Of a stretch of 39,445 bases of DNA, positions 28,279-39,330 are shown piece after piece. A model generated the notes under the pieces. The model had not been told where the DNA came from. It ran no database searches and saw only the letters and a program-made list of their open reading frames with translations. Location: positions 13,965-53,409 of the forward strand of contig JALHRC010000007.1 in assembly GCA_022841645.1 (NCBI GenBank). The letters are read 5' to 3'. A program made the position numbers and the translations under genes. Origin of the DNA: Minisyncoccota bacterium. GTDB lineage: Bacteria > Patescibacteriota > Minisyncoccia > Phycocordibacterales > UBA918. Position 1 is the stretch's first letter, and each line of letters opens with the position of its first letter.

Positions 28279-28983
28279 ATGCAATGCGTTATTTTGGCAG
28301 CGGGGAAGGGTACTCGGCTGCGGCCACTGACGGAAACCACCCCGAAGCCGCTCGTAAAAGTAGCGGGGAAGGCTCTTTTAGATCACGTGGTTGAAGCGCT
28401 CCCGAGTGCGGTTGAGGAAATTATTTTGGTGATTGGATATTTAAGCGAACAGATACGCACTCACTGCGGCGAGACGTACTACGGACGGAAGGTCACGTAC
28501 GTGGTGCAAGAGGAACAACGAGGTACCGGGCACGCTTTGTGGTTGTGCAAGGATCTTATCAAGGGTCGTTTTCTCTACATGTTTGCTGACGACCTCCACG
28601 GCCGGGCAGATATTGCCCGTGCCTGCTCGTATACACGCTCAATGCTCACTCTTACCACCGATACTCCCGAACGCTTTGGTATTGTAGTGCGTAACCCTGA
28701 CGGTACTCTCGCGGAATTTGTTGAAAAACCGTCACACCCACCATCGAACCTGGCGTCCACTGGTGTTTTTGTGCTCGATCAGCATATCTTTTCGTACGAT
28801 CTTGCCATTGAGACGAAAGGAGAGTTTTATCATACTGATGTGATCAAGGAATATGCCAAGGATCACCCGATAGCGGTGGTGGAGCAGTCTCTGTGGATCC
28901 CGATTGGCTACCCTGAAGACATTGGGAAGGCTGAACGTATTTTGGCCGCCCGGTCACTCGTGGGTGAGGGGAGTCGAATCTAA
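28279..28983 (+). CDS. Sugar-phosphate nucleotidyltransferase
   Basis: The nucleotidyltransferase signature AAGKGTRLRPLTETTPKPLV is at residues 7-26, followed by GTGHAL (base recognition), FADDL (metal-binding Asp) and FVEKP (substrate lysine). These are the features of GlmU/RfbA/GalU-type enzymes that make NDP-sugars from sugar-1-phosphate. At 234 residues it lacks the C-terminal acyltransferase helix of GlmU, so it is a stand-alone pyrophosphorylase. The exact sugar cannot be told. A single-gene unit with a predicted leaderless mRNA. Confidence 0.9.
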   Translation: MQCVILAAGKGTRLRPLTETTPKPLVKVAGKALLDHVVEALPSAVEEIILVIGYLSEQIRTHCGETYYGRKVTYVVQEEQRGTGHALWLCKDLIKGRFLYMFADDLHGRADIARACSYTRSMLTLTTDTPERFGIVVRNPDGTLAEFVEKPSHPPSNLASTGVFVLDQHIFSYDLAIETKGEFYHTDVIKEYAKDHPIAVVEQSLWIPIGYPEDIGKAERILAARSLVGEGSRI

Positions 28984-28998: not shown

Positions 28999-29028
28999 TA
29001 CTGAATCAACTCTAGAGTTAATTCAGTA
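28999..29028. repeat. 15-bp inverted repeat upstream of the HTH/LAGLIDADG-like gene
   Basis: TACTGAATCAACTCT with AGAGTTAATTCAGTA, no spacer and one mismatch. It follows the nucleotidyltransferase stop and may be its terminator or the end of a mobile unit. A similar hairpin precedes the paralogue at 38.5 kb. Confidence 0.6.
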
Positions 29029-29097
29029 CATTGGTAGATAACGAGAGTTGAATGTAGAAGATATGGCGCTGTGTCTAAGTGAACCACGGCTATATGG

Positions 29098-29103
29098 TAG
29101 AAT
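29098..29103 (+). promoter_or_regulatory. -10 box of the HTH/LAGLIDADG-like gene
   Basis: TAGAAT, 6 nt before the ATG at 29110. Confidence 0.5.
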
Positions 29104-29109
29104 AAACAT

Positions 29110-29790
29110 ATGGCTAAAACACAGGAAAAGGGGAGAGCTGTGAAGATGAGGCGACAGGGCGTAAGTATTAAAGATATTGCCACTCAGGTCGGGGTCTCTC
29201 CGGCAACAGTTAGCATATGGTGTCAGGATATTTTGCTTACCAGAGCCCAGAAAGAGAAGTTGTTTAAAAAGCAGATTGCGGCTGGACACAAAGGTCGCAT
29301 GATTGGCGCTCTCAAAAATAAGCAGATGAGGCTGCAGAATGTGGCTAATCAGGCAGTGATAGCACAGAGGCGTTTGGGAGGACTTTCCGCCCGTGACCGG
29401 TTTCTTTTGGGGATTGGTCTCTACTGGGGTGAAGGGACAAAGAGCCGTCAATCTGCAACGGCGATAGTAAATTCAGACCCGGACATAGTGCTTTTTGCTC
29501 GTGATTGGTTTGAAAATCTGGGGGTCAATCGATGTGACTTTCGGGTTTACGTATCGATTTCTTCTCTCCATAAGGAACGGGAAATAGCAATTGTTAATTT
29601 TTGGTCTCGTACTTTGGCCATACCAAGGCAGCAATTCAACCGGGTCACCTATTTTAAGACAGCACGAAAAAAGGTTTACGAAAACCACGATTCGTATTAT
29701 GGTATTGTGGCTTTGCGCGTACGAAGGGGAACTGACCTGAAATATATGATTTTAGGTCTTATCGATGCGTGTAAGGTATTGCCGGGGTAG
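29110..29790 (+). CDS. HTH plus LAGLIDADG-like protein ending inside tRNA-Met
   Basis: The N-terminal helix-turn-helix (VKMRRQGVSIKDIATQVGVS then PATVSIWCQ, residues 11-38) is of the resolvase/HTH_23 kind. After a basic linker, residues 100-111 (LGIGLYWGEGTK) resemble a LAGLIDADG motif, with Glu in the catalytic acid position. The rest alternates strands and helices as in single-motif homing endonucleases. The last codons GCC-GGGG-TAG region are shared with tRNA-Met: the stop codon TAG is U8-A9-G10 of the tRNA. A paralogue with the same arrangement is at 38574-39273. Nuclease function is inference. Confidence 0.7.
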   Translation: MAKTQEKGRAVKMRRQGVSIKDIATQVGVSPATVSIWCQDILLTRAQKEKLFKKQIAAGHKGRMIGALKNKQMRLQNVANQAVIAQRRLGGLSARDRFLLGIGLYWGEGTKSRQSATAIVNSDPDIVLFARDWFENLGVNRCDFRVYVSISSLHKEREIAIVNFWSRTLAIPRQQFNRVTYFKTARKKVYENHDSYYGIVALRVRRGTDLKYMILGLIDACKVLPG

Positions 29791-29855
29791 CTCAGTTGGT
29801 TAGTAGCGTGGGACTCATAAGCCCAAGGTCGTGAGTTCGAATCTCACCCCCGGCA
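29781..29855 (+). tRNA. tRNA-Met(CAT), elongator type
   Basis: Acceptor GCCGGGG/CCCCGGC, anticodon arm TGGGA-CTCATAA-GCCCA, T-arm GTGAG-TTCGAAT-CTCAC. The D-arm has an extra T (GTTAGTAGC), leaving three pairs, and there is an A.G pair at 31-39. A CAT tRNA could also be tRNA-Ile2. Its first ten bases double as the end of the upstream reading frame. Confidence 0.88.
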
Positions 29856-29880
29856 CAGCTCAGAGGTGGCGTTTTAGAGA

Positions 29881-30003: not shown

Positions 30004-30294
30004 GCGGGCGTAGCTCAGCTGGTTAGAGCGCTTCCCTGTAGCAATGCAGCTTTCTGTCGAAATGGCAGATTGAAACTTTCCGGGATATCGGTGAAGGCTA
30101 AGTCTTGTAATGAGATATGCGAATACCGAGGGAACCCCATACACACAAACACATAGTGTGGGGGCGCCGTAGAGACTAGATACCGGAACACCTACAAGCA
30201 CATATGCTCACGGTGAAGATATAGTCCATGCCGTTATGAAAATAGCGGATTACATGCACGGAAGAGGCCGAGGGTTCGAGTCCCTTCGCTCGCG
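30004..30294 (+). tRNA. tRNA-Asp(GTC) interrupted by a group I intron
   Basis: Exon 1 (30004-30039) ends in CTTCC-CTGT and exon 2 (30257-30294) begins CAC-GGAAG, so splicing yields a perfect anticodon loop CTGTCAC (anticodon GTC) and a 74-nt tRNA. The acceptor is GCGGGCG/CGCTCGC with one G.U and the T-arm is GAGGG-TTCGAGT-CCCTT. The intron sits between positions 35 and 36. CCA not encoded. The tRNA 3' end is copied twice downstream in tRNA-tail elements. Confidence 0.9.
30040..30256 (+). ncRNA. Group I self-splicing intron in tRNA-Asp (217 nt)
   Basis: The 5' splice site follows a U paired with G of the internal guide (CTGT with GCAG, forming P1). P7 can be drawn as GACTA of GTAGAGACTAGATA with TAGTC of the S element AAGATATAGTCC. 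A GC hairpin (CCCCATAC...GTGTGGGGG) fits P6, and the intron ends in G (30256). Size and site type fit the compact subgroup IC3 introns of bacterial tRNAs. There is no ORF inside. Confidence 0.85.
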
Positions 30295-30296
30295 CA

Positions 30297-30461
30297 GGCA
30301 AAAACCGCCAAAAGGCGGTTTTTGTGTGCGGGCGAAAGTGTTGGTGTGGGACACCAACACGTGGGACTCGAAGCCCGATTGAGCTGGATTGGGAGCGTAG
30401 CGAACCAATCCAGCCAATTGGGGTACTGAACCTGTAAGGTTCGAGTCCCTTCGCTCGCGCA
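30297..30461 (+). repeat. tRNA-tail element E (core family 2)
   Basis: It starts with a terminator hairpin (30300-30324). Then comes an inverted tRNA-Asp tail split by a hairpin (TTGGTGT...ACACCAA) and the family 2 core (stem GCTGGATTGG/CCAATCCAGC) nearly identical to element D. It ends at 30438-30461 with a 24-nt exact copy of the tRNA-Asp 3' end (30273-30296). Confidence 0.75.
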
Positions 30462-30698
30462 AGACAATGAGGCCGGCACGTTAGTGCCGGCCGATTGTGT
30501 TTTGCGACGGTGTGAAGGGGCTCGAAGGGCGAAGTCGGGGGTCCCTCTGGGCCGACTAGCCGGGGTCGATCGAATGAGGTTTTATGAGACGAAGTCGAAG
30601 TAAAACCCATGAGAGTGACCGAGTCCCTTCGCTCGCGCACGAAAAATATCCCCGTAATGGGGAATTTTTTGTGCGAGCGAAAGTATCGGTGTGGGACG
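30462..30698 (+). repeat. tRNA-tail element C (core family 1) plus truncated follower
   Basis: GGGGTCGATCGAATGAGG, a GGTTTTA/TAAAACC hairpin and GAGAGTGACCGAGTC place it with elements A1 and B. Its direct tRNA-Asp tail is at 30620-30639 (20 nt exact). A further terminator (about 30641-30671) and a partial inverted tail (GTGCGAGCGAAAG...GGGAC) show the start of another, truncated unit. Confidence 0.7.
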
Positions 30699-33242: not shown

Positions 33243-33315
33243 GCCAATGTAGCTCAGTTGGTAGAGCGCGTCCATGGTAAGGACGAGGTCTTCGGTTCAA
33301 TCCCGAACATTGGCT
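33243..33315 (+). tRNA. tRNA-Thr(GGT)
   Basis: 73 nt: acceptor GCCAATG/CATTGGC, anticodon arm CGTCC-ATGGTAA-GGACG (anticodon GGT), T-arm TTCGG-TTCAATC-CCGAA. It is followed by CCA, the only tRNA here with an encoded CCA, which is also the first three bases of the terminator stem. Confidence 0.95.
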
Positions 33316-33352
33316 CCATAATAAAAACCCCGGTAAGGGGTTTTTATTATGG
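33316..33352 (+). terminator. Terminator after tRNA-Thr(GGT)
   Basis: 16-bp perfect stem CCATAATAAAAACCCC with its complement, loop GGTAA. Confidence 0.92.
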
Positions 33353-38224: not shown

Positions 38225-38524
38225 ATGAACAAAGAACAGCAACTCATCGATGTCTGGATGAAGGAGCAGGGCTGGTCGTATTGGAAGCCACACGAAATAT
38301 TGGCGCGCCTCATGGAAGAAACTGGTGAGTTTGCCCGACTGGTGAATCACGAGTATGGTCCAAAGAAAAAGAAGGAGGGCGAATCGGTCCAAGACTTCGA
38401 AGACGAGATCGGTGACATCCTCTACACCCTCGCCTGCTTTGCCAATAGTCATGGCATCAGCCTCGATGCTGCCTTAGAGCGCAGTATTCAAAAGGTAGCT
38501 GGGCGTGATAAGGGGCGCTTCTAA
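38225..38524 (+). CDS. MazG-like nucleotide pyrophosphohydrolase
   Basis: The 99 residues contain the all-alpha NTP-PPase metal motif EETGE (31-35) and, about 35 residues later, EDEIGDILYTLACFAN with E-x2-D. These acidic residues bind Mg2+ in MazG/dUTPase-type enzymes that hydrolyse (d)NTPs to (d)NMP plus PPi, a house-cleaning role. It is single-domain, half the length of E. coli MazG. Last gene of the pyrG transcript by spacing. Confidence 0.9.
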   Translation: MNKEQQLIDVWMKEQGWSYWKPHEILARLMEETGEFARLVNHEYGPKKKKEGESVQDFEDEIGDILYTLACFANSHGISLDAALERSIQKVAGRDKGRF

Positions 38525-38535
38525 ATGTGTATATC

Positions 38536-38575
38536 GAACATACAATACCACTTATGCCAGTGGTATTGTATGTTC
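38536..38575. terminator. 17-bp perfect hairpin between MazG-like gene and the broken HTH gene
   Basis: Arms 38536-38552 and 38559-38575 are exact complements around TATGCC. It may end the pyrG transcript or mark the left edge of the HTH element, as at 28999-29028. Confidence 0.7.
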
Positions 38576-39273
38576 AGTAAAATCACCAGTTTCGTTAAAG
38601 AACACAGCGGTAGCACTGCGACGGCGAGGAAAAACCTATAGTGAAATCCTGGCTGTGGTACCAGTAGCAAAGTCGACACTATCGCTGTGGCTACGCGAAG
38701 TGGGCCTGAGCACTGCCCAAAAGCGGCATATAACTCTAAAGAGCCAAGATGCGCAGCGGCGTGGTGCCCTGGCGCGTAAAACGCAACGCCTTGCCTCCAC
38801 CTCACAGATAATAAAAGCGCTAAGCGGAAATCGGTGCTCTCACCGCACACGAACTTCTTCTTGTTGGTACGGCGCTTTATTGGGCAGAGGGGTCAAAACA
38901 GGGTGAGCGTACCGTAAGTACGGGACTTATATTTAATAATACTGATACAGCAATGCTTCGAGTATTCCTTAGGTTTCTGCGTGAAGTTATTAAAGCACCT
39001 TGGTCGGATATTACTTTGACCCTGTATATTCACCAAAACCACCGACACCGTGTACCTGATGTAGAGCGCTATTGGCGAAAAACACTTAAGGAGCCACGGC
39101 TCCTATTTGGTGGAGTGTATTACAAACGCCATAATCCCGAGCCGGGGCGGATTAAAATTGGTGAAAAGTACTATGGTACGGTGCGAGTAGTCGTACGTCG
39201 ATCGACCAATCTCTCAAGGAAGATTTCTGGATGGATATGTGGTATAAATGATGCCACTTGCCCGGTCGTCTAA
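38574..39273 (+). pseudogene. HTH plus LAGLIDADG-like gene, frameshifted, ending inside tRNA-Gln
   Basis: Frame 1 gives a helix-turn-helix (ALRRRGKTYSEILAVVPVAK, STLSLWLREVG) aligning with the protein at 29110. Near 38822 an extra A shifts the frame; removing it joins IIKAL to AEIGALTAHELLLVG and then ALYWAEGSK, the LAGLIDADG-like motif, with homology to the end. The last codon before TAA lies in the tRNA-Gln D-arm. No ATG is in frame before the HTH, so the start is also unclear. Both defects suggest decay, or a consensus error in the case of the single base. Confidence 0.7.
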
Positions 39274-39329
39274 CGGTAGGACATCAGGTTTTGGTCCTGA
39301 GTATTGGGGTTCGAGTCCCTGCCGGGCAG
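39259..39329 (+). tRNA. tRNA-Gln(TTG)
   Basis: 71 nt: acceptor TGCCCGG/CCGGGCA, anticodon arm TCAGG-TTTTGGT-CCTGA (anticodon TTG), T-arm TGGGG-TTCGAGT-CCCTG with two wobble pairs. Discriminator G, CCA not encoded. It overlaps the end of the upstream broken HTH gene by 15 bp. Confidence 0.94.
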
Positions 39330-39330
39330 C

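Follow-up and report, generated by a model that had tools for sequence, protein, structure and literature searches.

Probable LAGLIDADG homing endonucleases encoded at the 5' ends of tRNA genes in Patescibacteria

I-DmoI is an archaeal LAGLIDADG homing endonuclease with two LAGLIDADG repeats and without a helix-turn-helix (HTH) domain; its gene lies in an rRNA intron. WhiA is a chromosomal regulator in which a non-catalytic LAGLIDADG scaffold stands before a C-terminal HTH, and it shows no linkage to tRNAs. In CPR bacteria, single-motif LAGLIDADG proteins occur in rRNA insertions, and one of them, I-ShaI, is an active dimeric endonuclease (PMC11270868). SegB of phages T4/T6 is a free-standing GIY-YIG endonuclease that is encoded between tRNA genes and cuts within them, its site having the motif RAWTSGAAC (PMC13096335; PMC2988022). 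Another T4 endonuclease, I-TevI, represses itself via an operator similar to its homing site (PMC2988022).

Members of the family described here resemble the I-ShaI group in being single-motif LAGLIDADG-like proteins of the same phylum; the I-ShaI group, however, sits in rRNA insertions, and the word tRNA is absent from the main text of PMC11270868. Like SegB, which is free-standing in a tRNA cluster, the family genes are free-standing beside tRNAs, but SegB has another nuclease fold and is a single phage locus, whereas the family has a branch per tRNA species. The papers covered by an incomplete literature search deal with LAGLIDADG proteins in CPR rRNA insertions and with SegB in phage tRNA clusters; none of those read describes the present family.

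The gene under study lies in a stretch of 39,445 nucleotides from a Minisyncoccota bacterium (contig JALHRC010000007.1, positions 13,965 to 53,409), the whole of which we call the window. It occupies positions 29110-29790 of the forward strand and encodes 226 amino acids. The initial annotation described a DNA-binding HTH, a motif GLYWGEGTK that can be aligned with LAGLIDADG, and a stop codon supplied by bases 8-10 of tRNA-Met, and all three descriptions hold. The N-terminal HTH covers residues 2-37 (29113-29220; Pfam HTH_23, E 6.2e-8; AlphaFold2 helices 2-15, 20-27, and 31-37) and is the sole domain named for the window protein in single-protein searches of Pfam, NCBIfam, PHROGs, and PDB. The coordinates of the reading frame and of tRNA-Met(CAT), located at 29781-29856 of the same strand by both ARAGORN and Rfam, agree in placing the stop TAG (29788-29790) at tRNA nucleotides 8-10. 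Upstream of the gene are a GAAC element (29081-29084) and a -10-like box TAGAAT (29098-29103), the latter ending 6 nt from the ATG.

The C-terminal half of the protein (residues 91-226; 29380-29787) is probably a divergent LAGLIDADG domain related to I-DmoI both by profile and by modelled fold. AlphaFold2 with the family alignment gave a pLDDT of 95, both for the full-length protein and for the isolated C-terminal domain. The second repeat of I-DmoI tops the structural list for both models (Z 7.4 and 7.2; 2.7 A over 85 residues). In VIA-align this match spans 85 of 141 residues, and I-DmoI entries rank above unrelated folds, with bI3 maturase (Z 4.9) and E-DreI (Z 4.6) lower, among unrelated folds. 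A Z below 8 is not by itself decisive for the LAGLIDADG fold. Foldseek returned nothing at E <= 0.001; its top ranks were IspF and other unrelated folds, and with E above 0.001 this ranking was not counted as evidence. A profile of 109 C-terminal domains found I-DmoI as its only match in PDB (E 3e-4), with LYWGEGxK on LYVAEGDK and the near-invariant glutamate and lysine on E117 and K120 of I-DmoI. In the window protein these residues are E108 and K111 of GLYWGEGTK (residues 103-111; 29416-29442). Curated LAGLIDADG profiles gave no match above the cut-off for the window protein in the Pfam search, and Pfam LAGLIDADG_3 was reached weakly by four of the 109 domains (best E 0.0024); a curated profile can miss a divergent member. 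The predicted fold is in moderate agreement with a relation to homing endonucleases. The family differs from I-DmoI in having one motif, an N-terminal HTH, extra elements, and a position beside tRNAs. A LAGLIDADG-type motif with its acid is kept in 135 of 145 members, and all ten losses (10/10) fall in a single, vertically inherited lineage, the Gly(gcc) members from the window's genus. The one pair without saturation, the intact L104/L111, has dN/dS of ~0.08.

The family is absent from Pfam, NCBIfam, and PHROGs, and is uncatalogued in the sense that its C-terminal domain has no model in any library searched. The 215 non-redundant members come from Patescibacteria/CPR, a few huge-phage contigs, and one Omnitrophota. 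Our first survey, of 40 relatives and 286 genomes across the phylum, yielded 148 non-redundant members with a stop; 98 of the 286 sampled genomes, about one third, contain the family. A same-strand tRNA lies within -40..+300 nt of the stop in 118 of these 148 members, nearly always within -23..+46. When abutment is defined as -25..+50, it is observed for 114/148 members as compared with 15/241 other ORFs of at least 200 aa at the same loci, an outcome in favour of the initial annotation. Nor are homologues usually far from tRNAs in the pooled set, where in 181 of 215 cases the stop is directly followed by a same-strand tRNA (within -110..+60). Many apparent exceptions are members before tRNAs that are split by group I introns and missed by ARAGORN. 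Taking the identities of split tRNAs from their exons, we found tRNA-Thr (L022, L024), tRNA-Phe (L069, L072, L098, L100), tRNA-Asn (L071, L080), and initiator tRNA-Met (L057); adding these nine and two contig-truncated tRNAs brings the members directly 5' of a same-strand tRNA to 192/215. Convergent or divergent orientation relative to the branch's own tRNA is seen in a few members (L017, L066, and L019 for Ile; L040 for Trp). The abutment to tRNAs, unlike the exact stop position, is beyond chance.

The source genome (1.1 Mb) contains five family members, matched six times because a frameshifted copy at tRNA-Gln is hit in each of its two halves. One further member precedes tRNA-Ile(TAT), its stop likewise at nucleotides 8-10, another is followed by tRNA-Gly(GCC) 4 nt from its stop, and the fifth is divergent from tRNA-Val. 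Distant members on large viral contigs from IMG/VR (L056, L058, L059; contig size up to 340 kb) are located beside tRNA-Val or within tRNA arrays. A search of INPHARED phage records with a Gly(tcc) member gave no match.

The protein tree and tRNA identity correspond almost one to one, each branch being tied to one tRNA. On the tree of 145 members, 115 of which are labelled by 20 tRNA identities, we count 20 changes of identity versus 73-83 in 200 shuffles. Individual branches nevertheless span many host families, 11 for Ile, 10 for Gly(tcc), and 9 each for Trp and Ala. A blind scan of a named genome collection used the Gly(tcc) branch, as the whole-family alignment is too diverse for contig scanning. 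It recovered 67 further members, nearly all from CPR/Patescibacteria lineages by record title; 61 have a tRNA directly 3', which is Gly(tcc) in 58 cases. The remaining six include two that converge on Gly(tcc) at a distance of 4-7 nt, two located 52 nt ahead of Gly(tcc), and one whose contig ends inside the start of Gly(tcc).

Inside one tRNA branch, members follow host relatedness (15 changes, whereas shuffles need at least 24), which means that inheritance is mainly vertical and accompanied by loss. For the same reason, the congruence with tRNA identity could come from strict linkage and vertical inheritance alone. One clear outlier against the vertical pattern is a probable transfer outside the phylum, in a contig titled Omnitrophota (L228; flanks of up to 76% GC). 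Here a member is found in a Thr-Tyr-Gly-Thr-tuf-Trp tRNA cluster, in the order 5' half of tRNA-Gly truncated at the anticodon, family gene, complete tRNA-Gly(tcc). This single case suggests that the gene and the tRNA arrived together, with a break in the resident anticodon loop. The same contig has a low-GC ORF at 1689-2418, between tRNA-Tyr and the tRNA-Gly 5' half, that looks TIR-like, the domain being judged by eye. A search for similar footprints across members revealed no clear excess elsewhere. tRNA fragments were rejected as a general insertion scar, partial copies being present near 19/180 family tRNAs versus 71/301 control tRNAs. Upstream fragments were likewise rejected as a footprint (7/215 members versus 5/360 control ORFs), several of these fragments being the 3' exons of tRNAs split by introns. 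Copies of tRNA 3' ends (approximately nucleotides 50-72) recur 130-430 bp downstream of many tRNAs of the genus, for example at 30439-30462 of the window; these are perhaps old attachment sites.

The family is sporadic in the genus, and both empty and occupied sites can be observed at tRNA-Met and tRNA-Gln. In most genus members a nucleotidyltransferase gene directly precedes tRNA-Met; in the window these two (the former at 28279-28983, forward strand) are separated by the family gene. At the second site, the relative G004, in which no family member was found, has mazG, approximately 70 bp, and tRNA-Gln, whereas the window has mazG, a frameshifted family copy, and tRNA-Gln. This copy (38499-39273, forward strand; stop-to-stop frames 38499-38906 and 38824-39273) abuts tRNA-Gln(TTG) at 39259-39330 of the same strand and has its stop at nucleotides 13-15 of the tRNA. 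Strong inverted repeats at 29000-29030 and 38572-38610, just upstream of both copies, are candidate terminators of the upstream genes or operators. In G004 the tRNA-Met/tRNA-Asp pair is inverted relative to the genus (L187 2292-2504, on the reverse complement).

The explanation that we favour, and consider reasonably probable, is that these are free-standing homing endonucleases residing in the 5' flank of a putative target tRNA gene and inherited mainly vertically, with loss and occasional transfer. It brings together the position and orientation of the genes, their congruence with tRNA identity, the occupied and empty sites, the conserved acid and lysine, and the low dN/dS of the L104/L111 pair. 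The N-terminal HTH and the single-motif LAGLIDADG domain would bind DNA, probably as a dimer, and the protein would cut the gene-free allele of its own tRNA locus, the neighbouring tRNA gene being the putative target and the exact site within the locus a matter of inference. Double-strand-break repair would then copy the gene in, placing it after the tRNA promoter but ahead of the tRNA 5' end. In this position it might do little harm, because either the upstream promoter would read through the gene and the tRNA, or the 3' end of the gene would supply a promoter, and any 5' leader would be removed by RNase P. What counts against homing, besides the low structural scores (Z 6-7.4) and the largely host-following inheritance, is that a donor with an intact tRNA would need protection; a comparison of family-adjacent tRNAs, for Met and others, gave no clear pattern of altered, resistant sequence.

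Another scenario is that the family comprises domesticated regulators of tRNA genes, each co-transcribed with its tRNA, binding its own promoter, and tuning the expression of that tRNA. Inheritance that mostly follows the host would fit such a role, as would the conserved GAAC element, which overlaps the promoter region and is enriched upstream of the genes (84/140 upstream regions versus 33.5 expected). WhiA provides a precedent for a regulator on a LAGLIDADG scaffold. It shares with the family the combination of LAGLIDADG and HTH, and it is non-catalytic, a state that the Gly(gcc) proteins from the window's genus have largely reached; in the family, however, the order is HTH then LAGLIDADG, and the acid is kept except in this one lineage. 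The genus-wide Gly(gcc) copy is acid-less in 10 genes and yet has dN/dS of ~0.11, from one pair with dS near saturation, and looks like a retained, non-catalytic descendant. On the other hand, the acid and lysine are retained in essentially all other branches, and the patchy occurrence (98/286 genomes) and frameshifted copies are ill-suited to a needed regulator. We consider regulation unlikely. The GAAC element resembles the core of the tRNA T-arm as well as the SegB site, but its enrichment is confounded with promoter sequence and upstream tRNA ends. That it might be a T-arm copy, comparable to the SegB motif, and serve as an operator is only a lead.

The genes could alternatively serve the group I introns of neighbouring tRNAs, as mobility endonucleases or maturases engaged in collaborative homing (described in PMC3984707), rather than being parasites of tRNA leaders. 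Approximately 9 of ~103 group I intron matches, from 116 genomes and the window itself, are at most 160 bp away from a family member, the coordinates having been matched by hand; the tRNA-Asp intron near the window gene is one of them. The nine members directly before intron-split tRNAs include four at Phe, two at Thr, and two at Asn, and the tRNA-Gly remnant in the Omnitrophota contig ends at the anticodon, the usual place of such introns. However, more than 90% of members are followed by intronless tRNAs. The window points the same way, as its group I intron (RF00028, 47.9 bits) splits the anticodon loop of tRNA-Asp(GTC) at 30004-30295, whereas the gene abuts tRNA-Met. No member was seen inside an intron; a candidate intron-encoded gene (L022) was rejected because its ORF overlaps tRNA-Thr and the intron from the 5' side. 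A known endonuclease also targets a tRNA gene, but it is encoded in the group I intron whose mobility it drives and is specific to one tRNA. We therefore give a dedicated role in intron mobility a low probability; the proximity fits a shared ecology at tRNA genes, possibly with collaborative homing, but most family tRNAs are intronless. The introns themselves are gained and lost between close relatives, since tRNA-Asp is intronless in relatives such as G004. The latter has a group I-type insertion of ~190 nt in tRNA-Thr(GGT) (L187 4174-4441, reverse complement) that is missing from the window (33243-33318). In L069, the 5' flank of the family gene apparently contains a complete tRNA-Val(TAC) nested within a split tRNA gene.

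The position of the stop codon was initially proposed to act as a switch, RNase P removing the in-tRNA stop from a shared transcript, leaving a non-stop mRNA, and coupling tRNA maturation to low nuclease output. Such coupling is possible for about a third of the members and does not hold as a family rule. The frame ends within the tRNA or runs through it in 69/215 members, the others stopping earlier; the stop is at nucleotides 8-10 in 33 members and at 13-15 in 26 of the 215. These positions follow from invariant tRNA nucleotides: in 306 of 499 tRNAs the first stop of the corresponding frame is at nucleotide 8 (U8-R9-G10), and a different frame has its first stop at nucleotide 13 in 160 of 499. 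Since the stop position is generic, fusion itself is no evidence of a switch, and the stop position varies within single branches. Co-transcription is plausible for the members that end in or run through the tRNA, few of which have a -10-like box before it (11/66); the corresponding count for members with the stop 11-30 nt away is 21/45. An evolved switch is nonetheless very improbable. Of the original proposal of a homing enzyme fused to a tRNA 5' end, the HTH with a LAGLIDADG-type domain, the probable homing nature, and the position at the tRNA 5' end are supported; stop removal by RNase P as a rule is not.

The same box counts make both separate transcription of the tRNA and read-through with release by RNase P plausible. 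Judging from the sequence, a -10-like box at the 3' end of some family genes could start the tRNA separately, and for the window gene, which has neither such a box nor a gap, co-transcription and a non-stop mRNA are possible. A -10-like box also stands 4-18 nt before the start codon in 133/200 members (20/200 in a background window), and Shine-Dalgarno-like motifs are rare (18/138 members). Together these features suggest that the mRNAs are near-leaderless and that the gene occupies the place of the tRNA leader. More tentatively, and with some doubt, the 5' leaders of tRNAs may be the niche of a class of selfish genes, with one endonuclease branch per tRNA species. Removal of the leader by RNase P would protect such genes from counter-selection, as splicing does for intron-encoded endonucleases, and translation and tRNA maturation would compete on one transcript where the stop is inside the tRNA.

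In summary, the family may represent a new way for probable selfish DNA-cutting genes to sit harmlessly beside essential genes. If its members are homing endonucleases, they would constitute a natural collection of single-motif nucleases that covers about twenty different tRNA-linked specificities, and the targeting of tRNA genes would be testable across numerous sister enzymes. As a case of domestication, the Gly(gcc) lineage without the acid lends itself to study. Residence in front of tRNA genes would then be a third route to harmlessness, besides introns and inteins.
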